This document shows, piece after piece, positions 4,383 through 22,548 of a stretch of 56,914 nt of DNA. Within the stretch, counting starts at the first letter, position 1. The number at the start of each line of letters is the position of its first letter. Source of the stretch: Nevskia sp. (GTDB taxonomy: Bacteria; Pseudomonadota; Gammaproteobacteria; Nevskiales; Nevskiaceae); assembly GCA_016779605.1 (NCBI GenBank), contig JADHNH010000009.1, positions 1-56,914 on the forward strand, written 5' to 3'. Made by a program: the position numbers and the translations under genes. The notes beneath the pieces are model-generated. The model worked only from the letters and a program-made list of their open reading frames with translations, had not been told where the DNA came from and did not search any database.

Positions 4383-4467
4383 GCACAATTCTTTTCACGC
4401 GGCTACGCGAACTTCTCAGCAAATGAGTCTGGAATGCCTCCTGCGGCCACCACGGCGTAAGATCGCT

Positions 4468-4647: not shown

Positions 4648-4726
4648 CGTATCTCCTACAAGAGGTCTATTTCATACCAAGCGGCAAGCGAACCAACCGA
4701 AGCATAAGAAATCTGCTGCGGCACTA

Positions 4727-5167: not shown

Positions 5168-5356
5168 CTGCCTGTGTCTCCGCGGCCGGACGGGTGGCAT
5201 CCGCCGTTTACTAGATTGACATAACGCTGCGGCCGACGCACAACGGCGAATTCGTGCTGTTGAACCTCCCAATTTAGGTCCCTCGCTGCGCCGCCCTCGA
5301 TGCTATGATCGGCCGCCAAATTAACCGGCGACGGCGATTTCATAGGGAGAATCGAC

Positions 5357-6636: not shown

Positions 6637-6646
6637 CGTGACTGGC

Positions 6647-7669
6647 CTACCGGGCGATCTGGAGGGCAGACAGGGCCGCCGAAAGCTGGGCAGCCGTGAT
6701 ACCTCCCTTCGCGGCCAGGTTGTTCAGGCGCAAGCCGATATCGCGCTTGGCGCGATCGGTCACGGCGCCCTTTGCCGACGCCTGCCGCCGTACCTGTATG
6801 GCCGCGCGGAGCCTAGTAGAAGCCCGCCGCTGCGCCTGCGTCTGGATCGTGTTGCGGGCATAGCCAGATTCTCGATGCTGCCGCTCGCCGATCTGCTGCG
6901 CCTGCGGCTGGGTCAGGACGATGGCCTTGCTGGCACCGGCGGACAGGGCCCGGCGGTCGGCTTCGATCATCCTGGCGATCTGGTGCAGTACCGCGGCGCT
7001 GGTGAGCTGCTTCATCACCCGCATGACGTGCTTACAGGCCACGCCGCGCAGCTTCGGGTTGCGGATCTTGGGGTAGCCAGTCTCGTCCCGCCCGGCGTTG
7101 AAATGGCCGATCGTGGCGATGTAGCGGTACCAGAACGTGTGCCTGCCGCAGTCGCAATCGAACTTCAGGTGCCCCGCAGCATCCTTCCGTGCCGCCGCTT
7201 TGGCATCCTTGGGTGCTGCGACCAGCGACGAGTGCTCCAGCAGGACGACGTCGACGTGGTGGCGGCGCACGGCAGACGCCGGTCCGGCACTGGTGACGAA
7301 GTGCAGCTGGCCACGCCGGGCCCAGAGTGGGATTGCCGCATGGATCTCCAGGTTGGCACGCTGACGATCGATCGGCAGGGAACGGTTGATGACATCCGCG
7401 GCGGTGATGCCACCGTGAAACTTCTTCCCCAGGGTGGCCACGTTGCGCCGGAATGCCCTCAGGTCGTCCACAGTGAGCGGCCGCGCGAGGTCGCTGCCCA
7501 GCGTGGTAAGCAGTGCGCGGCCTGAGTCGTAGTCACCGGCGACCTCATGAGGAGCGAGGATGTTGGCGGCTCCGGCGCGACGCGCAAGCTCCCGGCGCTT
7601 GACCGCGGCGGCCTCCGAGCGGGCCCCGGCCGTGGTCGGCACGACGGACGGCGGCTTTTCCGAAGTCAC
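6647..7669 (-). CDS. Phage-type protein with SWIM-like zinc finger
   Basis: GTG start at 7669 forms a GTGA overlap with the stop of the preceding tape-measure-like gene, so the two are translationally coupled. The 340-residue protein has Cys172, Cys174, Cys212 and His214 in a CxC...CxH arrangement, the signature of SWIM zinc fingers, with an unusually long insertion. The C-terminal third is basic and helical (QAQAQQIGERQHRESGYARN). SWIM modules bind DNA or protein. The gene sits inside a tail-like cassette, so it may be a virion component with nucleic-acid affinity. Exact role unknown. Confidence 0.6.
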   Translation of the reverse strand: MTSEKPPSVVPTTAGARSEAAAVKRRELARRAGAANILAPHEVAGDYDSGRALLTTLGSDLARPLTVDDLRAFRRNVATLGKKFHGGITAADVINRSLPIDRQRANLEIHAAIPLWARRGQLHFVTSAGPASAVRRHHVDVVLLEHSSLVAAPKDAKAAARKDAAGHLKFDCDCGRHTFWYRYIATIGHFNAGRDETGYPKIRNPKLRGVACKHVMRVMKQLTSAAVLHQIARMIEADRRALSAGASKAIVLTQPQAQQIGERQHRESGYARNTIQTQAQRRASTRLRAAIQVRRQASAKGAVTDRAKRDIGLRLNNLAAKGGITAAQLSAALSALQIAR

Positions 7670-9768: not shown

Positions 9769-9772
9769 GGAC

Positions 9773-10558
9773 CTACCTAATTCCATAGTCGCGCCAACCG
9801 GCAGCATCGATTGCGGCCAGGGTCGATACGTTCAATTGGAGCGCAACATGCAGGCGGGCCCCGGTAGAGTCCCGCGGCACGGTGATCGGTTGGCCGATGG
9901 ACTCGATGACCACCGGCAGAACGCTGGCCCCGCCGTAGGAAAAACCGAGGATCTGGGGTGCCTTCGACGGGAACAGCGATCGGATCAGGTTGTGTGTCTT
10001 CGAAAACGACTCGATGAATCCGGCCTTGGACAACTCTTGGGGCAGCGCCCACTGCATCAACTGGTTGACCGGCTCCGTGACCTCCGACTTGGGGTCCGCC
10101 CAAGCCCGGAAGATCATCGTCATCGTGAACTTCATCGGCTGCATGCCGCTGAAAATCTGGGTGGAGTTGAGCCGGGTCATGCCGGACAGGCCTTCGAAGT
10201 CGCGGAGCCGGTCGGATACCGTTTGCAGGTCAAGGGACGCCGAAAACGACTTGATGGTCCCGGCGGAGCCGTCCGGGGCGAAGCTGGCCAAGGCTGACAG
10301 CGCCGACTGCAGGCCGCCGGATTGCAGCAGGCCGGTGAGCAGCGGGAGCTTGCTCTCCGCGCCGATCGCCTCGAACGGCGAATGCCATTGCAGGGCCGTT
10401 TCGAGGTTGCAGTCGCAGATCGGGCCCTCAACGGAGTCCGAACCGTCGATGACGGCCCAGTAGTCGCCGTTGCCGGTGTAGTGGTGCTCGACTGGATAGA
10501 GCTTCGCAATCAGTTGCTCGTTCAGCGAGCCCCATTGTGAGCGCAGTGCTTTACTCAT
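9773..10558 (-). CDS. Phage baseplate/tail-like structural protein
   Basis: 261 residues, ATG at 10558 overlapping the previous stop (ATGA). The C-terminal half has a pattern seen in contractile-tail baseplate and tube-initiator proteins: a basic strand-loop-strand (FPSKAPQILGFSYGG) followed by a VVIESIGQPITVPRD-type segment and an even-spaced beta region. The N-terminal half is less distinctive, with an acidic double-Cys strand (GPICDCNLE). It directly precedes the tape-measure-like gene, as tail genes do. No sheath, tube or capsid gene is visible in the window. Confidence 0.45.
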   Translation of the reverse strand: MSKALRSQWGSLNEQLIAKLYPVEHHYTGNGDYWAVIDGSDSVEGPICDCNLETALQWHSPFEAIGAESKLPLLTGLLQSGGLQSALSALASFAPDGSAGTIKSFSASLDLQTVSDRLRDFEGLSGMTRLNSTQIFSGMQPMKFTMTMIFRAWADPKSEVTEPVNQLMQWALPQELSKAGFIESFSKTHNLIRSLFPSKAPQILGFSYGGASVLPVVIESIGQPITVPRDSTGARLHVALQLNVSTLAAIDAAGWRDYGIR

Positions 10559-10944
10559 CGGACGCCTCCTTTTGCGTCGCCTCGCGCGCGCGCGTAAGCG
10601 CCGGGAAAGTCGCCACGAACTGAATCGTGCGAATCGGTTGACAAATCATCGGCTTGCAGTTGCCTTTCATTCTTGCGTGCGGGGAATGGAGCCAAAAAAG
10701 TGACGTAGACGGATCGATTTACCTCTCGGTCGAAGCAGCGACGACATAGGTCCGCGATGGGTGCGACGCGCTCTCGAAATCCTCGCGTCCATACTTCCCG
10801 CGTAATGCGGTGACGAACCGCGGCGCGGCTGGTTCCGAATTTCGCTGCCACGGCGTCAGCATTCACTTTGCGGTTTTGCTCCCAAAAAAGCCGCGCTTCG
10901 TACCATTCTTCTGCCGACAATCGGCGTGTATAAGGCTTCCCCAT
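10555..10944 (-). CDS. Small helix-turn-helix protein
   Basis: Start at 10944 (MGKPYTRRLSAEEW). Residues 8-55 contain a homeodomain-like/Psq-type helix-turn-helix (NADAVAAKFGTSRAAVRHRI). It may be the small terminase-like or regulatory DNA-binding protein that often precedes phage structural genes. No large terminase follows, so regulatory use is at least as likely. It lies 11 bases downstream of the XRE protein gene and overlaps the baseplate-like gene by 4 bases, placing it in the same transcript. Confidence 0.6.
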   Translation of the reverse strand: MGKPYTRRLSAEEWYEARLFWEQNRKVNADAVAAKFGTSRAAVRHRITREVWTRGFRERVAPIADLCRRCFDREVNRSVYVTFLAPFPARKNERQLQADDLSTDSHDSVRGDFPGAYARARGDAKGGVR

Positions 10945-10955
10945 CTCTTCACCCC

Positions 10956-12056
10956 TCACCGCTCGTCCGCATCCCACAGTGACCCCGGGACTTCGGCCAA
11001 GCGCTGCTGCTCTAGCTCAAGGGCCTCCCTGTCAAACTGGTCAAACCGTACGATTGCGGCCCGCGCCACCCTTTCTGCCTGATAAAGGCTCGCTATCGTG
11101 GTCTCAAGAAGGGCGCCTGCAGGCATGTCCGGATATTCCGGATTGCGGGCACGAAATCGACTAAGCGCGGCGCGAACGCCGGCACTTTTCTCGACGAGGT
11201 CCCGGCCCATTGCGACGGTCGGTGCCCCTTTCCCCAGCGCCTGGCCCATGAATCGCTGGACCGACTCGGCGTTCTCAACCAGCGCCGCGAAAATTCGATC
11301 TCGAAGGGCAGCCGACTTGCATTCGACCTCACCGGCATCGGCGTTGTCGACAAAGCCAAGCAAGAAATCGGTGGTGACGACATATGCGGCGCGAGCACCC
11401 ACAAGGATCTCAACGCGAGGAAGCATCTCACCGGCTTCGATTCGCCCCAGCGTGTCCGCATTAAGACCGCAGCCGATTCGGGCGGAGGCCTCTTCGAGGG
11501 TATAGCCGTTGTACTGTCGGGCCTTCTTAAGGCGTTGGCAGACCACCTGGGCTCGGTCTTCGGCACCTTTCCAGTTCGCCGATCGCATCGCCCGGCATAC
11601 GGCGCGGGAGGCTCCAGTTGGTGCCAGCGGCGCGGGTTCGTCCCCCAAGGCATCGCCGACTTCACCCTCAGACGCATCCAGGCTGGGGGGAGGACCTGCG
11701 GGTGCGGCTTCAGGCTGTTCGTGGTCACGGCCGGCCGCCCATGATGCGCTGCACGCTGGCTCAATCCTCTCCATGCCCGGCGCGTCGGAACTCGAATCGG
11801 CCGCCGCCCATTGCCTTTCACCAAGGGCCGCGGCGTGCACGGCGGGAACGTCTGTTATCACCGGATCAAACTGCCGCTCCGGCTGCACTTGCAGGGATGA
11901 GCCATCGCTTTGCCCGGTCTGGTGTAGCCCGTGGCGCAGATCGACAGCACATAACCCGGTCGCGTTCAGGGCGTTGTCATCGGGCAAGGTGGCGGGATTG
12001 GCCGCGGCCAACCAGGCTACGCTACTGTCGACATTGCCTACTAGCTCCGAGGTCAT
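10956..12056 (-). CDS. XRE-family DNA-binding protein with long disordered N-terminus
   Basis: ATG at 12056 gives an ATGA overlap with the upstream gene; about 366 residues. The first 160 residues are low-complexity Ala/Pro/Ser/Glu and look disordered. Residues about 171-235 hold an XRE/Cro-type HTH (RLKKARQYNGYTLEEASARI ... LGRIEAGEMLPRV). A helical C-terminal domain of about 130 residues follows. Phage repressors combine such an HTH with a dimerisation domain, but the LexA-like Ser/Lys protease motif is not evident. It may control the downstream tail-like genes. Confidence 0.7.
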   Translation of the reverse strand: MTSELVGNVDSSVAWLAAANPATLPDDNALNATGLCAVDLRHGLHQTGQSDGSSLQVQPERQFDPVITDVPAVHAAALGERQWAAADSSSDAPGMERIEPACSASWAAGRDHEQPEAAPAGPPPSLDASEGEVGDALGDEPAPLAPTGASRAVCRAMRSANWKGAEDRAQVVCQRLKKARQYNGYTLEEASARIGCGLNADTLGRIEAGEMLPRVEILVGARAAYVVTTDFLLGFVDNADAGEVECKSAALRDRIFAALVENAESVQRFMGQALGKGAPTVAMGRDLVEKSAGVRAALSRFRARNPEYPDMPAGALLETTIASLYQAERVARAAIVRFDQFDREALELEQQRLAEVPGSLWDADER

Positions 12057-12760
12057 TGCCCCACCTCGGACGCGGCCCATTCGGAATACTCGTCTGGACC
12101 GGTTGCCGCGAATGGGACGGCGACACTGGGAACGCACACGGCCGAGCGCTTGAGTACGACGCCGACCGACCTCGGATCGAAGGCCACACCAGGCGTCGAT
12201 TGGACCCATGCTGGGAAAAGATCTGCGAGCTTGTTCCGCGACAGGTAGTGAATCATCTTCGGTCCCATCTGTGGATCGCGTTCCACGTCCGCCTGGCCCA
12301 TGCGCGCCGCTACCAGCACCAAGCTGCGAGGCGGGTTGTAGGGCAACTCACGGCGATTGGCGATTTCCAGGAACTGCGCCGAAGCCTGCGGGTCATTCCG
12401 CAGGCCGTGATGATCGAGGCAGAATCGCTTTGGGGTATCGTCCGTGCCGCCGATACGGTGGGTGCCGCGAAGCGGGCAGCGCTTGCCACCGGCTTCGAAG
12501 CTACACTGAACCGGCGCACCAGTTTCAATTCGTTCTTCAGCGAACGCCTTGAGGATTTTGACGATTGCCGCAGGACTCGGGGGCGAGTCGTCGCGACCAT
12601 TGCGTGAATAGGCTAGGAGTGCGTCCCTGATGCGCTGCAGGGGCTGGTGCTTCAAAGCCCGCCAGAATGCCGCCAGGGTGTCTTCCCGGAGCTGTCTTGA
12701 ATAGCCGGCGAAGCATTCTGCCAGCGCTTTTTTGAAATCTTCCGCATCGGTGACGTTCAA
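12053..12760 (-). CDS. Phage P-like replication (helicase-loader type) protein
   Basis: 235 residues, ATG at 12760 overlapping the O-like gene stop by 4 bases. The N-terminal half is helical with an EDTLAAFWRALKHQPLQRIR segment and a PPSPAAIVKIL turn, resembling phage replication proteins that pair with O-type initiators and recruit the host helicase. The middle has Cys/His residues (CSFEAGGKRCPL and FCLDHHGL) that could bind zinc. The O-P gene order supports the assignment; sequence similarity to P itself is not evident to me. Confidence 0.5.
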   Translation of the reverse strand: MNVTDAEDFKKALAECFAGYSRQLREDTLAAFWRALKHQPLQRIRDALLAYSRNGRDDSPPSPAAIVKILKAFAEERIETGAPVQCSFEAGGKRCPLRGTHRIGGTDDTPKRFCLDHHGLRNDPQASAQFLEIANRRELPYNPPRSLVLVAARMGQADVERDPQMGPKMIHYLSRNKLADLFPAWVQSTPGVAFDPRSVGVVLKRSAVCVPSVAVPFAATGPDEYSEWAASEVGQ

Positions 12761-13605
12761 TGCGCAATCTCCCCTTCAATGCGCGCCACCACGGAGGTGG
12801 CGGAGAATTCAGCAGCCGCGGAACGGCCACTGCGATTGGTGCGGAGGCCCGCCCAATCGCCGCGGACCGCCTCTTGAAAGGCAGCATCCCAGTCAACGTA
12901 TTCGTACCCATTGGCTTGGCATTTGCGTTTGAAAGCCTCTAGGTGCTCCTCAAGTCGATCGAATCCCTTTTCTTGGGCCCACGCGCGTACCCGATCGCTG
13001 ATTGAGAATTCGGGCGACAGGGGAGTTTTGGCGCGCCGACGGCGCGCCGGCTGTTTCGTCCCCGTATCCGCATCCGTCTTCGTCCCCGTCTCCGTCCCCG
13101 ACTCCGGAGATCCGCAGGGCAATGGGTCTGAAGGGGGCCGAAGTGATGCCAATGGCTTTTCAATCGCTCCCGGAAGAGAGGCCAATGGCATCTCAATCCC
13201 TTTGGGAAGGGATAGCGATGACAATACAAACTCTTTGAGCCCGTCCCTGGTTTCGCGCTTCACGTATTCAATGCGGTAGGACCCGTCGACCCAGGGGTAC
13301 TTGCTGGTGATACAAGGGCTGCAGCGTTGGGTTCGTGCGATCTGCAGGTATGGCTTACCTGCCCATGTATAGGGGATGAGCAGCCCATTCTCGATACACG
13401 GGCCCAACGCCGCGGTGATGTCGGCGGCCGTAATTCCAGCCTTGATCGGAAACAGCTTGGACCGGAGGAAATCGGGCCGGCCGTCGATTCGCCCAGCGTC
13501 GTCTCCGGCGAGCACCATGCGCATGTACACGCACTCGCTTTCAGCGGACAAAGCGTTGATAGCCTCGGAGTCCAGCCATCCCTCGCGAAAAAGGCGATTA
13601 GGCAT
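12757..13605 (-). CDS. Phage O-like replication initiator
   Basis: 282 residues. The N-terminus (MPNRLFREGWLDSEAINALS ... DDAGRIDGRPDFLRSKLFP) is the winged-helix type found in phage replisome organisers. It is followed by a linker rich in Ser/Pro/Thr with a basic RRRRAK patch, and a C-terminal helical segment ending in WDAAFQEAVRGDW, a pattern shared by phage O-like proteins. It would bind origin iterons and start replication with the product of the next gene. It begins 8 bases before the end of the upstream gene, implying coupled translation. Confidence 0.65.
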   Translation of the reverse strand: MPNRLFREGWLDSEAINALSAESECVYMRMVLAGDDAGRIDGRPDFLRSKLFPIKAGITAADITAALGPCIENGLLIPYTWAGKPYLQIARTQRCSPCITSKYPWVDGSYRIEYVKRETRDGLKEFVLSSLSLPKGIEMPLASLPGAIEKPLASLRPPSDPLPCGSPESGTETGTKTDADTGTKQPARRRRAKTPLSPEFSISDRVRAWAQEKGFDRLEEHLEAFKRKCQANGYEYVDWDAAFQEAVRGDWAGLRTNRSGRSAAAEFSATSVVARIEGEIAH

Positions 13606-13843
13606 CGGTGCACGCGCGCTCGGCTATGACCCTGGCAGCCACGGCCTTGCCGTAGGCCGATGCTGCAGCGAGCAGCGCCACCCCGACCCCCAAAGGTACG
13701 CGGGAAGCCGCTGCGATCTCGCGCAACCGCTCTAGCGTGGTGCGCTCAGCGTGTTGGGCGGCGAGGAGGTTCTCGGCGGGGCCGCTGTGCGGCATAGCCG
13801 CCCGATCCTGCGGGGAAGGCGCACCTCCAGCAGACGCGCTCAC
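13598..13843 (-). CDS. Small protein with one hydrophobic helix, 81 aa
   Basis: GTG at 13843 forms a GTGA overlap with the 24-codon ORF before it, and the end overlaps the O-like gene by 8 bases. The C-terminal half has a hydrophobic Ala/Leu/Val segment (VPLGVGVALLAAASAYG) that may be membrane-associated. Function unknown. It is accepted because of the continuous chain of overlapping stop-start codons in this array. Confidence 0.5.
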   Translation of the reverse strand: MSASAGGAPSPQDRAAMPHSGPAENLLAAQHAERTTLERLREIAAASRVPLGVGVALLAAASAYGKAVAARVIAERACTDA

Positions 13844-13914
13844 GTCGGGCTGCCTGACAACTCGACGCACGAGATCGTCGTGGCCGCCCACGCGGCCTGT
13901 GCCGGCGGAAACAT
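13840..13914 (-). CDS. Possible 24-aa leader or microprotein
   Basis: ATG at 13914 lies two bases after the AlpA stop, and its TGA overlaps the GTG of the next gene. The 24-residue product (starting MFPPAQAAWAAT) is too short to judge by composition. The exact packing between two genes suggests it is translated, at least for coupling ribosomes from alpA to the next gene. Confidence 0.3.
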   Translation of the reverse strand: MFPPAQAAWAATTISCVELSGSPT

Positions 13915-13916
13915 GG

Positions 13917-14138
13917 TCACGCCGCCTTACGCGTTGCCTGGATGCGCGACGTAACCCATGCGTCTATCTCTGATTGAACCCAAGCAACAGTCCGGACGGA
14001 AAGCTGAATAGGCGCCGGGAAGCGCTTGTCCTTGATCAGTTGGTACAGCTGTGAGCGGCTGAGGCTCGTGCGAGCCTGCACTTCCTGCCGCCGAAGTAGG
14101 CTTTCGGGGCGAGCAACGATTTCAACTGCGTGAGACAT
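13917..14138 (-). CDS. alpA: AlpA-family transcriptional regulator
   Basis: About 73 residues from ATG 14138; a TTG at 14153 is an alternative. The sequence LLRRQEVQARTSLSRSQLYQLIKDKRFPAPIQL followed by AWVQSEIDAWV is the MerR-like winged helix typical of AlpA proteins, which control integrase/excision genes of P4-like satellites and prophages. It heads the replication and tail genes here. An inverted repeat 20-41 bases upstream of the start could be its own operator. Confidence 0.85.
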   Translation of the reverse strand: MSHAVEIVARPESLLRRQEVQARTSLSRSQLYQLIKDKRFPAPIQLSVRTVAWVQSEIDAWVTSRIQATRKAA

Positions 14139-14157
14139 TCCTGAATCTTCCAAGTGA

Positions 14158-14179
14158 GTCCCACATGTTCCAGTGGGAC
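14158..14179 (-). promoter_or_regulatory. Inverted repeat upstream of alpA, candidate operator
   Basis: GTCCCAC, an 8-base spacer and GTGGGAC form a perfect 7-bp interrupted palindrome 20-41 bases before the alpA ATG. The spacing puts it where a repressor would block the promoter or transcription start of the alpA-replication-tail transcript. Confidence 0.45.
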
Positions 14180-14238
14180 AACGATGGTAGATTCGGGAGT
14201 TCGGCTGTAGGAAACCAGTATTTACTACAATTTTGAAG

Positions 14239-14826
14239 TTACAGGTCTGGGTCGTTGTAGAAAGCGGCGCGGAGGCTTCTCTCGTTAATGCCGAGTGTTC
14301 GGCCGAGTTCGTGGCAGAGAGCCGATACGTTGGGCTTATGGCCTGCAGCTTTCTCCGCCTTGATTTGCTTCTTTAATTCGTCAAGGTGTTCGCGCTTAAT
14401 TTGAGCAGGACGGCCACCTTTGGATAACGGTGGCTTAGCGCTGGGCTTCACGTAGCCATTTGCTTCAGCCCAATCTTTCAACCACTGAACGTCGATGTCG
14501 CGCGAACTTGCCCAGCGAAGGAAATACGACGGCTTGCAGCGGGGAGGGTGGAGGCCTGACTCCCACACCTCTTTTCTCTCCAGGTACAACCTGTACCTGA
14601 CGTTGAGGGCGATGACCTCAGGTTTCAGCCTTTCAAGGGCGCGATCTACAACTTGCTGCACGCCGGATGCTGGAAGTTCTCGGACTGGGCGCGCATGTTT
14701 GGCATCTCTGAACCCCGTGATCAAGGCGATGCCGTCATCCCCTGTCCACGTATCGAGCTTGAACCATCGGTGAAGATATCCAAGCGGGTCGTCCGCCTTC
14801 TTGTGCGCAACTTCTGACTGCGTCAT
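14239..14826 (-). CDS. Element-encoded protein, downstream copy of a tandem paralogue pair
   Basis: 195 residues from ATG 14826, which overlaps the stop of the preceding gene (ATGA). It shares an architecture with that neighbour: an N-terminal GYLHRWFK ... WTGDDGIALITG block, a central ERKEVWESG ... KPSYFLRWA ... DVQWLKDWA block, and a helical C-terminus. The last 50 residues (HKPNVSALCHELGRTLGINERSL) look like a helix-turn-helix and follow a basic hinge (SKGGRPAQIKREH). It may bind DNA. Function unknown; I do not recognise a named family. Confidence 0.7.
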   Translation of the reverse strand: MTQSEVAHKKADDPLGYLHRWFKLDTWTGDDGIALITGFRDAKHARPVRELPASGVQQVVDRALERLKPEVIALNVRYRLYLERKEVWESGLHPPRCKPSYFLRWASSRDIDVQWLKDWAEANGYVKPSAKPPLSKGGRPAQIKREHLDELKKQIKAEKAAGHKPNVSALCHELGRTLGINERSLRAAFYNDPDL

Positions 14827-15461
14827 GGAGGAGGCGCCCATTGATTTACCTCTCGAAGCACGCGCTCAATTGCGTCACTACGAAGCGGTGTTCCAAGCCG
14901 ATCGCACTCTGTGCGGATTCGATCCGATAAATCGGTTGCTCCGCTGTCAGTGCGTGTGGCTCGACAGATCCCCGCTAGAATTGCCATAAGGACACGTCGT
15001 TCGCGCTGTTCTTGCCCTGGGACACGTGGAATTGGCAGCCTGTTTAAAACGGCCCAGTCACCCCATGGGACGTCCATCCTATTCTTCCATGCCCAGTCGA
15101 TGAATTCGCTGGGCCGCGCGCTTGCACCGCCGGTCTCGAGATCCCAAAGCCTCTTCCATCGCCGGTATTCGCGCAGGCGAGTCGCCTTGCGCCGACCTTG
15201 AACCGACACGGCTTCGGATATGGCGCGCGTTCTGTCGGCGACAACTTGGTCAAGGGAGCGAGGTTGGGGCGCGGCGGCCAATTTTGGCGATTCGACCTCG
15301 ATGGGGCGCAGACCGGCTAGAAGCGCGATCCCTTCCTCTGCTGTCCATACCAACTCGTCAAGCCAGTGCGCAACGTAACCGAAGTCCTCGCCAGGAGCCT
15401 GGGCCGCGGCAATGTCGGCCCCAAATTGGATTGGAGTCGGCGGATCGCCGGCCGTGATCAC
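14823..15461 (-). CDS. Element-encoded protein, upstream copy of a tandem paralogue pair
   Basis: 212 residues, GTG at 15461 overlapping the previous stop (GTGA). It has the same core pattern as the next gene: GYVAHWLDELVWTAEEGIAL near residues 28-47, then RRWKRLWDLETG, RPSEFIDWAWKN and DVPWGDWA. The C-terminal region (DLSDRIRTECDRLGTPLRSDAIERVL) is predicted helical. The central Trp/aromatic-rich block is the most conserved between the copies. A duplication inside a coupled operon suggests two interacting or functionally diverged subunits. Confidence 0.7.
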   Translation of the reverse strand: MITAGDPPTPIQFGADIAAAQAPGEDFGYVAHWLDELVWTAEEGIALLAGLRPIEVESPKLAAAPQPRSLDQVVADRTRAISEAVSVQGRRKATRLREYRRWKRLWDLETGGASARPSEFIDWAWKNRMDVPWGDWAVLNRLPIPRVPGQEQRERRVLMAILAGICRATRTDSGATDLSDRIRTECDRLGTPLRSDAIERVLREVNQWAPPP

Positions 15462-15919
15462 GCGGCCGCCGCCAGGCGAAGCGCAGCCTGCTCATCACGG
15501 TATTCCCGCAGCAATTGGTTGGCATCATATCCGTGGGCTACGATGCGCAAGGCGTATTCGATGAAATTGCAGAATCCGTAAGCGTAGCCTGGGGTACCAT
15601 CCGAGTCGCTGGAATACTTAAAGCCGTCGGCAGCGTGGATCTCCGCGACGAGGTACCCGAACCACGGGAATGCATTGCCCCGAGAAAAATGCGTCAAATA
15701 CGCGGCGGCGAATTCCTGGCCTGCCCGAAAAGCAGCTTCATAGTCGTTCGTGGGCTCCACGTGCCAAAAGCTGCGACCGGTCCGGGAACCAACTTTCACA
15801 TCACGAACGAATGGAAGGCTGAGAAGGTCGCGAATTTCCTTCTCCAACCTCAACGAGCGGCGCAATTTACTGCCGCTTCGGTCGTAAGGTTTGCTACGAT
15901 CGAGTCTGGATTGCTTCAT
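15458..15919 (-). CDS. Hypothetical element protein, 153 aa
   Basis: ATG at 15919 with GGAG seven bases upstream; first gene of the array. The N-terminus is basic (RSKPYDRSGSKLRRSLRLEK). The rest is aromatic and acidic (SFWHVEPTNDYEAAFRAGQE, FGYLVAEIHAADGFKY), like a small single-domain cytoplasmic protein. It overlaps the first paralogue gene by 4 bases. A promoter and two hairpins lie upstream. Function unknown. Confidence 0.65.
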   Translation of the reverse strand: MKQSRLDRSKPYDRSGSKLRRSLRLEKEIRDLLSLPFVRDVKVGSRTGRSFWHVEPTNDYEAAFRAGQEFAAAYLTHFSRGNAFPWFGYLVAEIHAADGFKYSSDSDGTPGYAYGFCNFIEYALRIVAHGYDANQLLREYRDEQAALRLAAAA

Positions 15920-16012
15920 GGCTATCTCCATGTGGTAGTCAAGTGCCGGCCGGTGCTCGAACACCGGTTTGGGGCGGACTTAGGCCGGCGCGTTGCGCCG
16001 GTCTCAGTCTTC

Positions 16013-16041
16013 AATATATGCTCGTTCGCACAAAGCCGCAA
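16013..16041 (-). promoter_or_regulatory. Sigma-70-like promoter of the element A array
   Basis: Minus strand TTGCGG, 17 bases, TATATT. The -10 matches consensus in five of six positions with ideal spacing. It points to the gene at 15919, about 95 bases downstream. The leader contains two stem-loops: CCGGCGC/GCGCCGG (15985-16001) and CCGGTG/CACCGG (15950-15967). Confidence 0.55.
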
Positions 16042-16072
16042 TAGCTATTCTGTCTAAAAATCAATAAGTTAG

Positions 16073-16208
16073 CTAGCAAAATGCTAGGCGATAATTGGGG
16101 CGTACAACGCGACACAACAAAATTGCATTGCGTTGTGTGACGCCTGCAAGAGTTCGATTTTTGGACCTGAGCAACGTTCGGCACCGGCCCAACTGGGCGG
16201 CACAACGC
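16073..16208. repeat. Palindrome and repeated ACAACGC motifs between divergent parts of element A
   Basis: CTAGC-N5-GCTAG lies at 16073-16087. The heptamer ACAACGC occurs at 16104-16110 and 16202-16208, and its complement GCGTTGT at 16130-16136. GACACAAC and GTTGTGTG also pair across 16111-16139. There is no gene here (15920-16243). The cluster could be regulatory or integrase/origin binding sites. Confidence 0.3.
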
Positions 16209-16243
16209 AGTGAGCAGCGAACATTAGTGCGCCCGGTGTCACG

Positions 16244-16414
16244 TCATTGTTTCGTCGCATTCCGATTTCTGCGCCTCGCAGTAACTTTCTGAGCAACTAG
16301 GCCCAGTTGTTCCAGATATTCGGCCACTGCGCGCTCGGCCATCAGACGAATCAGCGTGCAGTTAGCGGCCGTCAGCGGGCGTGACGGGCGCTCGGAACCT
16401 GAAGAATTCCTCAC
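16244..16414 (-). CDS. Small basic protein downstream of the integrase, 56 aa
   Basis: GTG at 16414 overlaps the stop of the preceding small gene (GTGA). The product has a helical core (AERAVAEYLEQLGLVAQKVT) and a very basic tail (RRRNRNATKQ). The chain integrase, 66-residue gene, this gene is joined by 4-base overlaps, so it is probably cotranslated with the integrase. It may be an accessory recombination or excision factor; this is inference. Confidence 0.5.
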   Translation of the reverse strand: MRNSSGSERPSRPLTAANCTLIRLMAERAVAEYLEQLGLVAQKVTARRRNRNATKQ

Positions 16415-16611
16415 CGAATTGCGCGGCAACTCTCCCAGCCCATCGAGTGCGCTTTTTCCGCCACCGAGTCGATCTCGGAACTGAGTTCTGCCTCTTTGTG
16501 CTCGCGACGCGACTTGTCGGCCCGCCGCTTCCGGCGAGCCGTGGTAAGCACTTCGATCAGCACACGGGTGCGGTCTACGGACTGCTGGCTGGTCTTGCTT
16601 GATTCGGTCAC
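16411..16611 (-). CDS. Small charged protein coupled to the integrase, 66 aa
   Basis: GTG at 16611 overlaps the integrase TGA by 4 bases. The protein is highly charged and helical (TTARRKRRADKSRREHKEAE), like a nucleic-acid-binding coiled coil. No family is recognised. Position and coupling suggest expression together with the integrase. Confidence 0.5.
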   Translation of the reverse strand: MTESSKTSQQSVDRTRVLIEVLTTARRKRRADKSRREHKEAELSSEIDSVAEKAHSMGWESCRAIR

Positions 16612-17828
16612 GCGACCCTCCCGAAGCCGCCGGCTACTACCTTGCGATCCTCGCGCAGCGCGTCCAGGTAGTCCGCCCAGGCCTGCATCATCTTGCGGCG
16701 CTCCGGCAAGTGCTCAGCGCGGTTGTAAGCGGCGCGCACCTTGTTGCGCTCGGCGTGCGCGAGCTGGCGCTCGATAACATCCCGGTTCCAGCCCTGTTCG
16801 TTGAGCATCGTCGACGCCGCGGCGCGGAAGCCGTGGCCGGTCATGGTGGCTTTGTCGAACCCGAGGCGTCGCAGTGCGGCGTTCACCGTGTTTTCGCTCA
16901 TCGGCCGATGGGCAGTTCGCAGGCTTGGGAACACGAACCGACTGCGGCTGGTAAGCGGGTGCAGTTCGCTCAGGACAGCGACGGCCTGGGCGGGCAGGGG
17001 AACGATATGATCCGCCCGCGTCTTCATTTTGGCGGCCGGAATTCGCCATTCGGCACGATCAAGGTCGATTTCGGCCCATTCGGCTTGCCGCAGTTCGCCA
17101 GGGCGCACGAATAGCAGGGGAGCCAGCCTGAGGGCGCTGCCGGTGACGAACGAGCCTGTATAGCCGGCTATTGCCCGCAGCAGGTCGGCGAAGCCTGCGG
17201 GCTCCGTAATCGCCGCGCGGTGCGTGGTTTTGACCGGCGCAAGTGCCCCCCTCAGATCGGCAGCAGGATCGCGCTGGACGCGTCCAATGGCGAGTGCGTA
17301 ACGGAATACCTGGCCGCTGTATTGATGCGCCCGGTGGGACGATTCGACGGCTCCGCGGCCTTCGATTCGGCGCAGCACATGGAGCAATTCTGGCGGCGTG
17401 ATATCGGCAATCGGGCGAGCCCCGAGCCAGGGAAAGATGTCTCGCTCGAACATCCGCAATATCTTCTCGGCGGTTGCCGGCGCTAGGGTAGGTAGGCGCT
17501 TGATGTACCAGTCCCGCGCGATCGCTTCGAACGTACTGCCGGACTTGTCGCGGTCGGCCAACTTCCGCATTTTCCGGGCCTCGCCAGGATCGCCTCCGGA
17601 CGCAAGGATTTCACGCGCGCCGTCGCGACGGCTGCGGGCGAGGGCAAGGGGCACGTCCGGGTAGACTCCGAACGCCAAGCGCTTTTCCTTGCCCCCGAAA
17701 CGGTATTTCATCCGCCAGTATTTGGACTTGTTCGGCATCACCTCCAAATAGAGGCCGCCACCGTCGCTTAGCTTGTATGGCTTGGTCTGCGGCTTGGCGC
17801 TACGGACCGCGGTGTCGGTCAGCGGCAT
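16608..17828 (-). CDS. int: P4-type tyrosine integrase (element A)
   Basis: 406 residues from MPLTDTAVRSAKP; an ATG three codons upstream is possible. The N-terminal DUF4102-type arm-binding domain (KLSDGGGLYLEV ... LAFGVYPDVPLALAR) is followed by a core-binding SAM-like domain and the catalytic domain. Catalytic residues visible are Arg in VRPGELRQAEW, the Lys region in AAKMKTRADHIVPL, HGFR, LAHAERNKVRAAYNRAEHL with His and the nucleophile Tyr in AAYNR. The gene begins about 175 bases from the tRNA-Thr 3'-end copy and reads away from it, the normal position for P4 integrases. Confidence 0.95.
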   Translation of the reverse strand: MPLTDTAVRSAKPQTKPYKLSDGGGLYLEVMPNKSKYWRMKYRFGGKEKRLAFGVYPDVPLALARSRRDGAREILASGGDPGEARKMRKLADRDKSGSTFEAIARDWYIKRLPTLAPATAEKILRMFERDIFPWLGARPIADITPPELLHVLRRIEGRGAVESSHRAHQYSGQVFRYALAIGRVQRDPAADLRGALAPVKTTHRAAITEPAGFADLLRAIAGYTGSFVTGSALRLAPLLFVRPGELRQAEWAEIDLDRAEWRIPAAKMKTRADHIVPLPAQAVAVLSELHPLTSRSRFVFPSLRTAHRPMSENTVNAALRRLGFDKATMTGHGFRAAASTMLNEQGWNRDVIERQLAHAERNKVRAAYNRAEHLPERRKMMQAWADYLDALREDRKVVAGGFGRVA

Positions 17829-17917
17829 TGGGGGCATTTCCCATACGAAATCGAGCCAATTGCTCGAAAGTGCCCCTACTTATGCCCCCGATTTGTCTGG
17901 CTGTCAATGGATGTCGC

Positions 17918-17996
17918 TGGACTGCGCTGGACGCTGAAACCCTTGATTTATGCGGCCCCAAGCGGTGTTCCCGAACTTATTTGGACTGTCTTGGAC
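17918..17996. repeat. TGGAC direct repeats, candidate integrase arm sites
   Basis: TGGAC occurs at 17918, 17928, 17982 and 17992: two pairs, each with a 10-bp period, about 64 bp apart. They lie between the att copy and the integrase start, where arm-type binding sites of P4 integrases are found. Confidence 0.45.
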
Positions 17997-18003
17997 GGGT
18001 AAT

Positions 18004-18048
18004 TGGTGCCGGCAGCAGGGATCGAACCCGCGGCCCTCTGATTACAAA
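18004..18048 (-). other. att site: copy of the tRNA-Thr 3' end
   Basis: On the minus strand this is TTTGTAATCAGAGGG, a full T-arm (with GTTCGATC loop) and acceptor TGCCGGCACCA. It matches the 3' 45 bases of the intact tRNA-Thr at 22473-22517 in 39 of 45 positions. All six differences are within the T-arm; the last 15 bases, from the anticodon side, are identical. There is no 5' half. It is the junction between element A on its left and element B on its right. Confidence 0.8.
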
Positions 18049-18124
18049 GCGGAAGCTACTTTTGGCTTATAGTGGAAAATCAAGGCCTTGCAACGCTCGC
18101 GCAGTCACGACATGGCCGAATAGA

Positions 18125-18153
18125 TTGACCTGAATCCAATATGCGGGTACGAA
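18125..18153 (+). promoter_or_regulatory. Possible promoter of the cargo gene
   Basis: TTGACC, 17 bases, TACGAA, about 65 bases before the cargo start codon. The -35 is good; the -10 is weak. A TACACT a few bases on is an alternative -10. Confidence 0.3.
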
Positions 18154-18218
18154 ATCGCTACACTAAAGCTCGGCACGCATGAATTGATGTGTAGGTCATG
18201 CATCGGAGGAAATCTAAA

Positions 18219-19598
18219 GTGCTTTGGTTGAAAATGTTGCGAAAAGAGCTGAAAGCGTACAGCCCAGAACAGTTCACTGAACTAGTTGTTCGTCTTTCAG
18301 ACGAGTACAAGCCATTAATTAGCCAAGCACGCGGTGCGATGGCGTCTGCGTTGTCAGTAAATCCCGATGCTCTTATACCGTCAAGAGATGAGGCCGAGCT
18401 ATATTTGCGTCAAAGCGTCTCGCGGGCTGGCGAGATTTTTACCGACGGTCAATGCTTATTGATTGCCTCGGTCATAGATGCAGCGCAAGCGCTCTATTAC
18501 GTTCAACAAGACGATGGTGACGAATCGAAGGACGAAAAATTGTCTTTGCAAATTGCATTGATTTCGTCCGTGAAAGACGCGGAGGCCAAACTTGCGCAAG
18601 TGCAAAAAATCTCCGAACAGGTTTTCGGTAAGGGATTTTCGCCTTATTTGTACCGCTCCTCAGAATTTGCGACGCTTAAGTCCGAAAATGCTGAGTCTGC
18701 AGTTGCTCTTCCGACCGATGATACTTATTCGGCGGCAGCGGTGCTGAGTAACCGCGATTGCCGCACATTAGCAATCGCGGTGAAGGCGTCTGGCGGGTTA
18801 CTTGAACGCGATATTCAAAAGCAACTTTCGCCGGAAATTCGGGAAAAAGCGCCAATTTTGGTTCAAGAACTCAAAGACGCTAAGCTCGTTGAGTCCGAAA
18901 TAGTTGTAATTTGCAGCAAGACTCAAGCTCAAGTCGCGCGAGCGCCATCACGAGAGATTATTAAGGAGCTCGCCGAAAAACGTGTTAAGTGCGCATGCGG
19001 GAGAAGCCTTTCAGAAGAGCGTGCGGAGGAAGCGTTATCGATTACAAATTCCGGTCGAATTTTGCTCGATAAGGCGCGCTGGATGTCAGTGCTGCTTGTG
19101 CAGGAACTAGAAGCAGTAGGCATCCCACGTGACTGCATTTTCCTGGAAGCCCGCGTTGGCGGTGACGAAATGGATTGTGTGGCAGACGTGTCAGGTGAGC
19201 TAGTTCTCTTCGAGCTCAAAGATAAGGAATTCAGCCTTGGGAATGCTTACTCATTTGGAGCAAAAATCGCAATTATCAAACCAAATCGTCCTGTGATTGT
19301 GACGACTGAAAAAGTCGCCAACGACGCTAAAGAGCATTTTGTTCGTGCTGGACTTTCTGGACAAGTGCCAGACTCGATGTTCAGCGAGAGCCGGAGTGGC
19401 ATTCACTATATTGAAGGGATAGATTCATTGCGTCTTGGTTTAGAAATGCTTGCGACAACAATCTTCCGTAATGACGCGGTCAATCTATTGGGCCGCGTTT
19501 TGCCATTGGTTTCAGTTGATGGTGCGGCGTTATTTGACGCTTTTGAATCGGCTCGGACCGGCGCTGTCGAACGAAAGGCAGAGGCGGAACGCCCCTAA
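18219..19598 (+). CDS. Cargo protein with PD-(D/E)XK nuclease-like C-terminal domain
   Basis: The GTG at 18219 is chosen because GGAGG sits nine bases upstream; an ATG at 18198 would add seven residues but place the ribosome site inside the gene. About 459 residues. The N-terminal half is helical. A winged-helix-like region covers about 177-228 (TLAIAVKASGGLLERDIQKQ), and a short CACG motif at 258-261 may bind metal. Then comes a core with GGDEMDC (Asp319) and FELKD (Glu332, Lys334), 13 residues apart, fitting D...ExK of PD-(D/E)XK nucleases. The codon use is AT-richer than both flanks. Restriction-like or anti-phage function is plausible but unproven. Confidence 0.6.
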   Translation: MLWLKMLRKELKAYSPEQFTELVVRLSDEYKPLISQARGAMASALSVNPDALIPSRDEAELYLRQSVSRAGEIFTDGQCLLIASVIDAAQALYYVQQDDGDESKDEKLSLQIALISSVKDAEAKLAQVQKISEQVFGKGFSPYLYRSSEFATLKSENAESAVALPTDDTYSAAAVLSNRDCRTLAIAVKASGGLLERDIQKQLSPEIREKAPILVQELKDAKLVESEIVVICSKTQAQVARAPSREIIKELAEKRVKCACGRSLSEERAEEALSITNSGRILLDKARWMSVLLVQELEAVGIPRDCIFLEARVGGDEMDCVADVSGELVLFELKDKEFSLGNAYSFGAKIAIIKPNRPVIVTTEKVANDAKEHFVRAGLSGQVPDSMFSESRSGIHYIEGIDSLRLGLEMLATTIFRNDAVNLLGRVLPLVSVDGAALFDAFESARTGAVERKAEAERP

Positions 19599-19601
19599 GA
19601 A

Positions 19602-19716
19602 GCGTTGTCCACATAGCCCACAGCCCAGCGCCCGCCGACCGGCACGGCCGCTAGGCCGAGCCGGCCGGTCGGCGGGTCGCCCGCAGGGCGAGGCTGTGGG
19701 CCCATGTGGGCAACGC
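19602..19716. repeat. 115-nt nested inverted repeat, candidate replication origin
   Basis: Outer arms GCGTTG-CCACAT-GCCCACAGCC (left, from 19602) pair with GGCTGTGGGC-CATGTGG-CAACGC (right, to 19716) with few mismatches. Inside, CCCGCCGACCGGC pairs with GCCGGTCGGCGGG, and CGGCC-GCTA-GGCCG forms the tip. Such multi-tier structures serve as single-strand or double-strand origins, or packaging signals, in rolling-circle replicons. It also follows the cargo stop codon and could act in termination, but there is no U-run. Confidence 0.6.
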
Positions 19717-19733
19717 GGGGTAGTGGCGCACCC

Positions 19734-19780
19734 CATTAGCACAGTGCCATACTCGCGGTCGTTCATTAGCAAGGTGCTAT
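19734..19780. repeat. Two 17-bp direct repeats ahead of the small gene
   Basis: CATTAGCACAGTGCCAT (19734-19750) and CATTAGCAAGGTGCTAT (19764-19780) match in 14 of 17 bases and lie 30 bp apart, three helical turns. The second contains AGCA-N3-TGCT dyad symmetry and ends right at the ATG of the next gene, covering its ribosome site. They are candidate operators or Rep/regulator iterons. Confidence 0.5.
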
Positions 19781-20101
19781 ATGACACCGGAGCAAATGGC
19801 CAGCACGGCCAACAAGGCCATTAAGGAATTCAAAGGCCAGGTCGGCGAGCTCGAATCGGCCATCGGTACCATGTTCGTCGCCGAGCAAGTTGGCTGGAAG
19901 CCGATTTACCTGATCCACGACAAAAAAACGATCCGCAAGTACGAAAAAATCCTCGGGATCAATTTCCGCGATGAATTCGATGATGAGGGGCCACTCGTAC
20001 ACAAGAGCCTGGCGTACACCTGGGCCAAAGAGCTTGGCAACTTCTGGAAGCGCGTCAAAGGCGAAATCACCGGCGCCCGCTCACCCCAACTCGTGAAGTA
20101 G
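19781..20101 (+). CDS. Small element B protein, 106 aa
   Basis: ATG at 19781 with AAGG six bases upstream; Met6 (19796) is an alternative. An alpha/beta protein without known motifs: a helical start (STANKAIKEFKGQVGELESA), a strand region (GWKPIYLIHDKKTIRKYEK) and a basic C-terminal helix (WKRVKGEITGARS). Its position just before rep, behind repeated operator-like sites, suggests copy-number or transcription control of replication. Function is not known. Confidence 0.65.
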   Translation: MTPEQMASTANKAIKEFKGQVGELESAIGTMFVAEQVGWKPIYLIHDKKTIRKYEKILGINFRDEFDDEGPLVHKSLAYTWAKELGNFWKRVKGEITGARSPQLVK

Positions 20102-20111
20102 CGAAGGGGTA

Positions 20112-20142
20112 TTGACTACCACCCAATCAAGGGGGTAGTGTG
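20112..20142 (+). promoter_or_regulatory. Hairpin and possible promoter upstream of rep
   Basis: CTACC-A-CC and GG-G-GGTAG (20116-20138) form a stem with one mismatch around a CAATCAA-type loop, and TTGACT begins at 20112. It is the only structured segment between the small gene and rep and may be a promoter/operator or a Rep nick-site hairpin. Confidence 0.35.
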
Positions 20143-20174
20143 TCTCCCGTGTTCTGAAGCCGTCGGGAGACGTC

Positions 20175-21200
20175 ATGAGCGAGCATGAGCGGTCGAAGCA
20201 AGCGGGCGCGCGGCGCCCGTCTGTGCCAGCGCGTAGCGCGGGCAGGGGCGGGCGCCGCACTGCGTTGGAGCCCCGTCAAGTAAATCCGGGGCGAAAGGTC
20301 GATGGCAGAGAAGATACGGGGCCTCAGTCGGCCCTGGTGGATTGGCTGGCCTTCACCGTAACCCCACCCCCAACAAAAGATGTGCAGTGGGTTGCGCAAG
20401 CCTTGGTGACGGTATTCAAGGTGTCGCCGCAGCCGTGGAAATCCCACGGCCGGGGCTGGAATGGATACTCCTGCCGGGTCGATCTCAACGGGGCAGGGCT
20501 GCTGGCCCACGGCGGCGATTATCAGCGCGGCACCGTCCACGTCGAGCTCAACGCCAGCGGTTGCGCCCAGATCGCGGACTGGAATGCGGTACGGCTGTGG
20601 GGTGAAACCTACGGTGTCCGCATCACCCGGATTGACCTGGCGCACGACGATTTCGACGGCAAGACCGTCAACATCGACCTGGCCAAAGCTTGGTACAAGG
20701 CTGGTGGGTTCAACAGCAGCGGCAGGCCGCCACGGGCCCAGCTGATCGACGATTTCGATTCGGGCGAGGGCAAGACCCTCTACATCGGCCGTCGCGAGAA
20801 CGGCAAGCTCCTGCGTATCTACGAAAAGGGCCGCCAACTCGGTGATGTCTTGAGCCTGTGGGTGCGCATCGAGGTTGAGCTGCATAACCAGAATCGCGTC
20901 ATTCCCTGGGATGCCGTGACCCGGCCGGGCCACTACCTTGCCGGCGCCTATCCGGCCCTGGCCTTCCTCAACGCCGAGCAGGAACGCCTGCGCACCACGC
21001 AACGAACCGCCGAAATCACGTACGACCGCATGGTCGAGCACCTCCGTATGGTGGGGGGAAAGGCCATCAACGCCATGTGCCAGGTGCACGGCGAGGACAA
21101 GGCGGCGGTGGTGGATCAGCTGCGGCGGGACGAGCTGCCGGAGCGCCTCAAGGACCTGCCGCTGTCGATCGGCGAGCTGCTCGGTGGATGGATTCCGTGA
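20175..21200 (+). CDS. Rolling-circle replication initiator (Rep_trans/phage type)
   Basis: 341 residues from ATG 20175. After a disordered basic N-terminus come the family blocks LVDWLAFTVTPP, RGWNGYSCRVDL, YGVRITRIDLAHDDFDG, TLYIGRRENGKLLRIYEKG and LWVRIEVELHNQNRVIPWD, the pattern of Rep_trans initiators found in filamentous phages and small integrative elements. Such proteins nick one strand at the origin and stay covalently linked through a tyrosine; Tyr in RIYEKG is a candidate. The stop overlaps the start of the xis-like gene. Confidence 0.85.
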   Translation: MSEHERSKQAGARRPSVPARSAGRGGRRTALEPRQVNPGRKVDGREDTGPQSALVDWLAFTVTPPPTKDVQWVAQALVTVFKVSPQPWKSHGRGWNGYSCRVDLNGAGLLAHGGDYQRGTVHVELNASGCAQIADWNAVRLWGETYGVRITRIDLAHDDFDGKTVNIDLAKAWYKAGGFNSSGRPPRAQLIDDFDSGEGKTLYIGRRENGKLLRIYEKGRQLGDVLSLWVRIEVELHNQNRVIPWDAVTRPGHYLAGAYPALAFLNAEQERLRTTQRTAEITYDRMVEHLRMVGGKAINAMCQVHGEDKAAVVDQLRRDELPERLKDLPLSIGELLGGWIP

Positions 21201-21559
21201 TCACGCTGACCCTGCAACAGGCGGCGGCGTTCCTCCACGTCCATCCGGTCACGCTTCGGCAGTGGGCGGCCAACGGCAAAGCGCCGGGCTCAAGGCCCGG
21301 CCGGCGATGGATATTCCTGCAGGATGACCTGGTGGCCTTCCTGCGGGCAGACTACGAACGGCGAGCGTTGCAGGGTGACAGCCTGGAGAAATTCAAATGT
21401 CGCTCTACAAACGCAAGGACTCACCTTACTGGTGGGTCAAGTTGTCCCACAACGGTCGCACGCTACAACGCACTTCTGGCACTTCCGACCGCCGCAAGGC
21501 CAAGGAATACCACGACCGGCTCAAGGCGGAGCTGTGGGATCAGGAACGCCTCGGCGTAA
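21188..21559 (+). CDS. Excisionase-like MerR-type HTH protein overlapping the integrase
   Basis: ATG at 21188, starting 13 bases before the rep stop; 123 residues. The first 55 residues form a helix-turn-helix with wing (LTLQQAAAFLHVHPVTLRQW ... GRRWIFLQDDLVAFL) of the helix_turn_helix_17/excisionase class. The C-terminal part, CRSTNARTHLTGGSS ... RPRNTTT, resembles the tail I recall from other members of this family, so the reading frame appears genuine although its last 163 bases are also integrase codons in another frame. It probably directs excision of element B. Confidence 0.7.
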   Translation: MDSVITLTLQQAAAFLHVHPVTLRQWAANGKAPGSRPGRRWIFLQDDLVAFLRADYERRALQGDSLEKFKCRSTNARTHLTGGSSCPTTVARYNALLALPTAARPRNTTTGSRRSCGIRNASA

Positions 21560-22446
21560 AGCCGCGGCGAGCATGGGAGGAAGCGGTGCTGCGCTGGAAT
21601 GACGAAAAGGCCCACAAGGCTTCGATCGGTGATGACTTGATGCACTTCCGCTGGCTGCGTCCGCACCTGGCGGGCCGCAGCCTGTCCGACATCGACCGGG
21701 ATCTGATCGACCAGCTCGTCAAAGCCAGGCGTGCCGAAGGGGTGTCGAATGCCACCGTCAACCGCATGCTGGCCCTGGTGCGGTCAGTCCTGCGGATCGC
21801 GGTGGACGAGTGGGAGTGGCTGGAACGTGCGCCCAAGGTGAAGCTGCTTTCGGAGCCTAAACGGCGGGTGCGCTTCCTGACCGAGGACGAAGCCAACCGC
21901 CTGCTGGCCGAGCTGCCGCCGCACCTGGCGGCCATGGCCTGGTTCTCGCTCCTGACCGGCCTGCGCCAGCGCAACGTGCGTGAGCTGCGGTGGTCGCAGG
22001 TCAACCTGACGGAGCGCGTTGCCTGGATTCACCCGGACGAAGCCAAGGCCAGGAAGGCCATCCCGGTGCCGCTGAGCATCGCGGCCGTGAAGGTGATTCA
22101 GGATCAGATCGTGGCGGGCAGTCCCTACGTGTTCACCTACAAGGGTCTGCCGATCCGCCAGGTGAACACCAAGGCCTGGCGCAACGCGCTCAACCGGGCG
22201 GGCATCGAGGACTTCCGCTGGCACGATCTGCGGCACACCTGGGCGTCCTGGCACGTGCAGCGGGGAACGCCGCTGTATGCGCTGCAGGAGCTCGGCGGCT
22301 GGGCCTCGGTGGAGATGGTGCGGCGGTATGCGCACTTCTCGCCGGCACACCTGACGACACACGTCGACCGCTTTGCCGATCAGATCGGGCTGCGTCCGAT
22401 CCTGGGAGGTGACAATTCAGCTACGCAGAAGGAGGTTTTGCACTAA
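21397..22446 (+). CDS. int: XerC/XerD-type tyrosine integrase (element B)
   Basis: 349 residues. The N-terminus (MSLYKRKDSPYWWVKLSHNG) is the short AP2-like arm-binding module. A core-binding domain and a catalytic domain follow, with TGLRQRNV (Arg), KARKAIPVPL (Lys), HDLRHT (His-x-x-Arg), LGGWASVEMVRRYAH (Trp/His position and nucleophile Tyr). It ends 26 bases from the tRNA-Thr gene and reads towards it. The start at 21397 is inside the xis-like gene. It probably recombines at the anticodon-stem region of tRNA-Thr. Confidence 0.95.
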   Translation: MSLYKRKDSPYWWVKLSHNGRTLQRTSGTSDRRKAKEYHDRLKAELWDQERLGVKPRRAWEEAVLRWNDEKAHKASIGDDLMHFRWLRPHLAGRSLSDIDRDLIDQLVKARRAEGVSNATVNRMLALVRSVLRIAVDEWEWLERAPKVKLLSEPKRRVRFLTEDEANRLLAELPPHLAAMAWFSLLTGLRQRNVRELRWSQVNLTERVAWIHPDEAKARKAIPVPLSIAAVKVIQDQIVAGSPYVFTYKGLPIRQVNTKAWRNALNRAGIEDFRWHDLRHTWASWHVQRGTPLYALQELGGWASVEMVRRYAHFSPAHLTTHVDRFADQIGLRPILGGDNSATQKEVLH

Positions 22447-22472: not shown

Positions 22473-22548
22473 TGGTGCCGGCAGAGGGATTCGAACCCCC
22501 GACCCTCTGATTACAAATCAGATGCTCTACCGACTGAGCTATACCGGC
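22473..22548 (-). tRNA. tRNA-Thr (anticodon TGT)
   Basis: A complete 76-base cloverleaf with encoded CCA (22473-22475), acceptor GCCGGTA, D-arm GCTCAGTCGGTAGAGC, anticodon stem CTGAT-TTGTAAT-CAG with TGT, and T-loop TTCGAAT. Its 3' end faces element B and matches the att copy at 18004-18048, showing it is the integration target whose 3' end is restored by the element. Confidence 0.97.

Follow-up and report, generated by a model that had tools for sequence, protein, structure and literature searches.

A candidate stand-alone nuclease effector carried by an integrative element at a tRNA-Thr gene in Nevskia sp.

Among the described systems closest to the locus reported here are Can2 and Card1 (DUF1887, including VC1899), the ancillary nucleases of type III CRISPR. 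In the portions of the literature drawn on here, these proteins have been described as homodimers of a CARF and a PD-D/ExK domain that are activated by cyclic tetra-adenylate and that act on single-stranded DNA, double-stranded DNA and single-stranded RNA (PMC9704534). The E276/D278 pair of Can2 has been reported as needed for activity, and E156/D158 of the mismatch endonuclease EndoMS to superimpose on that pair (PMC7969007). As it is compared here, Can2 is a nuclease that turns active once its N-terminal sensor binds a signal. The present work concerns a gene in a 56,914-nucleotide (nt) stretch of contig JADHNH010000009.1 from Nevskia sp. (the window), where it stands as the cargo of an integrative element at a tRNA-Thr gene (Table 1). 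We hold it an evenly balanced proposition that this gene encodes a stand-alone, three-part nuclease effector that defends against phages or rival elements. In such a system the N-terminal domain would sense an infection product of a phage or of a competing element, the protein (by analogy a dimer) would then change shape, and the nuclease would nick or degrade DNA or RNA so that the invader or the cell is stopped. The gene travels on an integrative element of about 4.5 kb with a rolling-circle Rep and a tyrosine integrase inserting into a tRNA 3' half and, being carried on this element, would therefore protect the host and, through the host, the element itself.

Conserved residues and predicted fold of the cargo protein

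The open frame covers 18198–19598 on the forward strand and gives 466 amino acids (aa) when counted from the alternative ATG at 18198. Residue numbers follow this frame; those of an earlier model-made reading of the letters (the sequence-only reading) are lower by 7. The GTG at 18219 is the likely start because GGAGG (18205–18209) precedes it by 9 nt and the relatives start near the same point, and the earlier choice of start, with D319, E332 and K334 (here D326, E339 and K341), is plausible. Six members of the protein family have been found, namely the window protein and those of Sinimarinibacterium flocculans (L034, the same as P0002), a Bryobacterales metagenome-assembled genome (L033), Amycolatopsis orientalis (L035) and two further loci (L038 and L039). 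The residues of the PD-(D/E)XK superfamily, an acidic residue and (D/E)-x-K, are present as E324-x-D326 and E339-x-K341 in five of the six. Identity to the window protein over the nuclease region (residues 263–408) is 66% for P0002, 64% for L033, 48% for L035, 35% for L038 and 21% for L039; over the N-domain (1–167) the corresponding values are 23, 28, 19, 15 and 14%. The N-terminal domain (residues about 1–165) is poorly conserved, and a fast-changing front joined to a conserved catalytic back is what would be expected of a sensor-effector protein, but is common in other proteins too.

The winged-helix middle that had been proposed from the letters is borne out by residues 171–290, which were modelled with a predicted local distance difference test (pLDDT) score of 84–94 and match MarR/HxlR-type regulators. 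The CACG motif noted earlier is likewise present (C265-A-C267-G). All six members have kept C239, C265, C267 and W295, and the three invariant cysteines, which lie at the edge of the winged helix, possibly form a zinc site. Over residues 291–380, model 1 shows the alpha-beta-beta-beta-alpha-beta order of PD-(D/E)XK-like folds, and its nuclease end, a low-confidence region, has structural matches to Can2 and EndoMS; taken together, the modelled winged helix and nuclease would resemble Can2. Weak fold matches in the PDB included the archaeal repair endonuclease 2vld, Cap4 and FokI. No Foldseek match of the structure models stood at E ≤ 0.001. In a viral fold library the sole match at E ≤ 0.001, a Bacillus phage JL protein (E 7.8e-4, template modelling scores 0.18/0.26, root-mean-square deviation 15), was rejected as too poor.

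Several results weigh against a Can2-like nuclease effector. Model 1 has a pLDDT of only 50–75 over the nuclease-like order, and a second model, made from the C-terminal part alone, did not reproduce that order. No sequence profile reaches its cut-off on the nuclease end, and the cargo protein has no significant match by sequence to the Can2/Card1 family in Pfam, NCBIfam or the PDB. The D-(x12)-E-x-K pattern is by itself weak, since shuffled versions of the protein contained it in 743 of 5000 cases. In L039 (895–2262, forward strand) the catalytic residues are lost while the three cysteines and W295 are kept. Finally, the Cas10 models Csm1 and Cmr2, which were positive in 7 and 4 of 14 control genomes, found nothing in the 95%-complete genome of the strain, a search that left CBASS cyclases aside; an effector of a type III CRISPR system of the same cell is therefore not supported by these two models.

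The D/ExK core claimed in the sequence-only reading is weak as a motif alone and becomes meaningful because five of the six family members keep the residues. Homologues missing D/E/K, which that reading had named as counter-evidence, are represented by the distant L039, perhaps a regulator or partner subunit, and not by the other four relatives. Its wider claim of a nuclease gains from the conserved residues, the element order of model 1 and the Can2 and EndoMS matches, and loses from the low pLDDT, the second model and the missing profile. Overall, reading the C-terminal end as a metal-dependent PD-(D/E)XK nuclease is reasonably supported, and the protein quite probably has nuclease activity. 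If the nuclease end were only a vestige, the protein could be a transcription regulator of winged-helix type, which would agree with the winged helix being the sole confidently modelled domain and with the loss of catalytic residues in L039; but conservation is highest in the nuclease region, and ExD...ExK is intact in all members except that one, which makes such a regulator highly improbable.

Distribution of the family and the case for defence

Searches with the window protein alone matched 1 of 369 genomes of its class, its own. Strong matches in the order were found in 2 of 85 genomes, own included, the other (G408, E 9e-57) being the same gene as that of S. flocculans. A profile of two sequences run against genome contigs recovered L033, L034 and L035, and a four-sequence search of the Amycolatopsis order (2 of 397 genomes) and the Bryobacterales phylum (2 of 297), each count including the seed, added L038 and L039. 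Later searches gave no convincing new member: one matched 2 of 200 genomes, both known, and another 3 of 200, its own and two partial matches at E about 9e-4 that were dropped as unconvincing. The same was done in the order with 22 more genomes, whose matches were all weak (best E values of 0.04–0.8). Judged by these sequences, the family is rare yet spans Pseudomonadota, Acidobacteriota and Actinomycetota, the phylum names being taken from the organisms and search groups. No relative was found in the viral contigs scanned with the family or in phages, where matches to phage PaBG (E 9) were rejected, and tblastn of plasmids gave no accepted match. An Ensifer plasmid match at E 0.4 was rejected, its frame being taken as antisense among what read as ABC-transporter genes. 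An EndoMS/NucS-kind endonuclease of DNA repair or house-keeping, acquired by the element, is very unlikely, as so sparse a distribution in the class and the order does not fit a repair gene.

The earlier statement that no named system with this layout was recognised agrees with the libraries, in which nothing significant was found for the window protein in PADLOC (5027 models), Pfam, NCBIfam or PHROGs, the last being searched with the window protein rather than its relatives. None of the six members has a match at threshold in Pfam, NCBIfam or PADLOC, and the PADLOC-listed defence systems (2023) gave no family for any of them up to E 1. PDB sequences gave no match at threshold with the window protein, with the family-member profiles or with L038. 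Sub-threshold matches regarded as probably due to chance were those to DUF6890, PtrR, phrog_24901, CDKN3, ATP-grasp_4, UBA_7, DUF4350 and zf-dskA_traR, to the MqsA-type CxxCG model TIGR03830 (one member, E 0.14) and, in the PDB, to the Rad50 hook (E 0.24), ribosomal S18, an ABC transporter binding protein and a TetR protein. One sub-threshold match bears on modification-dependent (type IV, Mrr-like) restriction, in which the N-domain would read a modified base and incoming DNA would be cut constitutively, with no infection or second-messenger signal. L038 matches Mrr_cat (PF04471) over the ExK region, a Megaviridae Mrr-domain protein is found among the weak viral fold matches (rank 21, E 0.18), and the single-gene layout would suit such restriction; yet the L038 match is below the cut-off, the other members have none, no profile reaches its cut-off, and model 1 has its better structural matches among Can2-like proteins. 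We regard Mrr-like restriction as unlikely.

The neighbours of the six loci were surveyed by all-versus-all comparison of open reading frames (ORFs) of at least 40 aa, in stretches of differing length (that of L033 reaches only about 350 bases past the gene on one side), and nothing was common to them except the family member and opposite-strand frames over it. L035 lies on an integrative element that encodes two FtsK-like proteins, a RepSA of pSAM2 type and, immediately upstream of the family member, an integrase. Chromosomal-looking neighbours are a PhoD-like phosphatase, named by Pfam, and flhB, recognised from sequence (L032), and an aromatic amino acid lyase, again named by Pfam (L033); those of L053 and L054 read as metabolic from their letters alone. 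Two of the six members are therefore on recognised mobile elements. Mobility, sparse distribution, the lack of common partner genes, a defence-type protein in one of six sister Rep regions (described below) and the resemblance to Can2 together tilt the balance slightly towards a putative role in defence.

The integrative element and its sister elements

The coordinates of the element are collected in Table 1. A compact mobile element at a tRNA site had been proposed from the letters, and it is upheld by a tyrosine integrase beside tRNA-Thr with direct repeats of the tRNA 3' half. The two 54-nt repeats are 83% identical and lie 4469 bp apart; their core, CCCTCTGATTACAAA (exact over 15 nt), occurs twice in the window when as many as 2 mismatches are permitted, where 0.03 occurrences would be expected. 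The cargo gene is, as had been said, alone, the other recognised genes between the repeats being those listed in Table 1. It is also AT-rich relative to its surroundings, with a GC content of 0.49 as compared with 0.635 for 19781–22446 and 0.62 and 0.69 for the flanks, and its GC at third codon positions is 0.465 (Rep 0.79, integrase 0.83); by its composition it thus resembles cargo that did not originate together with the element core. A sigma-70 scan of 17800–20300 gave no promoter-like site. The DNA of 19590–19790 folds at -72.1 kcal/mol (z -8.94, none of 200 shuffles as low) and holds a 13/13 inverted repeat (19631–19643/19664–19676); we would guess that this fold-back between cargo and core is a rolling-circle origin or a terminator.

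Table 1. Features of the integrative element and its cargo gene (window positions)
Feature	Position	Strand	Remarks
Left attachment repeat, degenerate copy of tRNA-Thr 3' half	18004–18057	+	tRNA-versus-window BLASTN E 1.7e-12
Cargo gene: N-terminal domain, winged helix, CxC site, PD-(D/E)XK-like nuclease	18219–19598	+	459 aa from GTG
Winged helix	18705–19067	+	residues about 170–290 of 466-aa numbering
Nuclease-like domain	19071–19421	+	residues about 292–408, with E324-x-D326 and E339-x-K341
Long GC-rich fold-back behind cargo; candidate replication origin or terminator	19602–19716	+	
Element-core protein of 106 aa, function unassigned	19781–20101	+	homologues beside Rep in L049 and L107; no Pfam match
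Rolling-circle replication initiator (Rep_trans)	20175–21200	+	PF02486 E 5.3e-29; PHROG 453 (replication initiation) E 6.9e-80
HTH_17/excisionase-like protein, start uncertain, overlaps Rep end	21077–21559	+	PF12728 E 4.8e-12
Tyrosine integrase	21397–22446	+	PF00589 E 2.6e-31
tRNA-Thr(TGT), integration target	22473–22548	-	right attachment repeat at 22473–22526

Rep_trans proteins are typical of filamentous phages. Matches to the Rep were found in 7 of 85 genomes of the order (one marginal, own included) and, at E ≤ 1e-30, in 3 of 350 genomes of the class (own included), and relatives are encoded on 49 IMG/VR contigs. Six Rep regions (L048, L049, L050, L051, L052 and L107) were compared, the marginal G372 being left out. 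The integrase-Rep pair of the window element returns in L048, L050 and L051, where it lies beside tRNA-Pro, tRNA-Arg and tRNA-Thr(CGT), respectively, and where the 3' half of the tRNA is repeated exactly over 45–46 nt. In the interval from Rep to the far repeat, L048 holds no whole ORF of at least 80 aa and L050 a 121-aa ORF. L051 carries there a 314-aa cargo protein (9489–10433, reverse strand), a candidate for another unknown defence gene; like the L050 ORF, it has no Pfam or PADLOC match. L049 has the Rep, a 106-aa-type protein and a different integrase, with no clear tRNA repeat found, and beside this Rep a 917-aa protein (4352–7105, reverse strand) with Mrr_cat (E 1.2e-6) and nSTAND1 (E 9.6e-11) domains and no PADLOC match; STAND NTPases that bear a nuclease domain are proteins of defence. 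L107 has the Rep, a 106-aa-type protein, an ORF read as another integrase and a 147-aa ORF without a Pfam match. L052 (3441–9425) is a filamentous prophage at tRNA-Val that encodes Zot (4441–5604), a tyrosine integrase and a protein related to the Rep, and is a possible helper-type relative of the mini-elements. The comparison thus indicates that the element core recurs, that the cargo varies and that one of six regions carries a defence-type protein.

The Rep relative in L052 and the position of the cargo directly beside the candidate origin would also suit a factor for element maintenance or helper-phage interference, acting on the rolling-circle replication of the element or on a filamentous helper phage. 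However, L048 and L050 have integrase and Rep without a gene of the cargo family, and family members also occur in loci without this Rep, so the cargo gene is not needed for the element cycle; its composition is, moreover, sharply unlike that of the core. A maintenance or interference factor is quite unlikely. Pfam searches of the five element proteins gave only Rep, HTH and integrase and no Zot/pI gene of inovirus assembly, short coat genes lying outside the search.

A second integrated element lies directly to the left (about 4730–17837). Its integrase (16608–17837, reverse strand) adjoins the left tRNA repeat, and it carries AlpA (13917–14153), genes of replication-initiation, tail and head-morphogenesis type and a Ulx-like anti-restriction gene (4727–5272). 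The two elements appear to stand in tandem at one tRNA-Thr.

Comparison with known systems

A wider proposal, tentative and on balance doubtful, is that the family represents new single-gene immune nucleases, with a Can2-type body outside CRISPR, another sensor in place of CARF, a very rare occurrence over at least three phyla, and carriage by rolling-circle mini-elements with a defence cargo slot. If this were true, a nuclease body hitherto met in CRISPR signalling would serve as a stand-alone defence gene as well, its own sensor domain would hint at a new trigger that could be sought, and Rep_trans elements of roughly 3–4.5 kb with tRNA-directed integrases would be recurrent carriers of undescribed defence genes and a cheap place to search for more.

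As an element, the locus is like the satellite-type elements with defence cargo, P4-like satellites (PMC9122126) and PICMI (PMC10803314), in being small and integrative with variable cargo. It differs from them, as far as the parts of these reports used here describe them, in its Rep_trans, in that no capsid-hijacking gene was recognised and in an integrase and Rep common to three sister elements of the order. Among titles and abstract beginnings on filamentous-phage satellites with defence cargo, no description of this element type was recognised. As a protein, the cargo is like EndoMS/NucS in the nuclease-domain fold of model 1 and in the E-x-D spacing given in the part of PMC7969007 used here, and differs in that the match covers the nuclease end only, in the added winged helix and in a sparse, partly mobile distribution. 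It shares the E-x-D spacing and, as modelled, the general layout with Can2 and Card1, and is unlike them in being a lone cargo with three invariant cysteines and in its N-domain, where no CARF-like Rossmann order is visible in the low-confidence model and CARF is not among the fold matches listed. Overall, the comparison suggests, by analogy, a protein that would work like Can2 without being filed as Can2.
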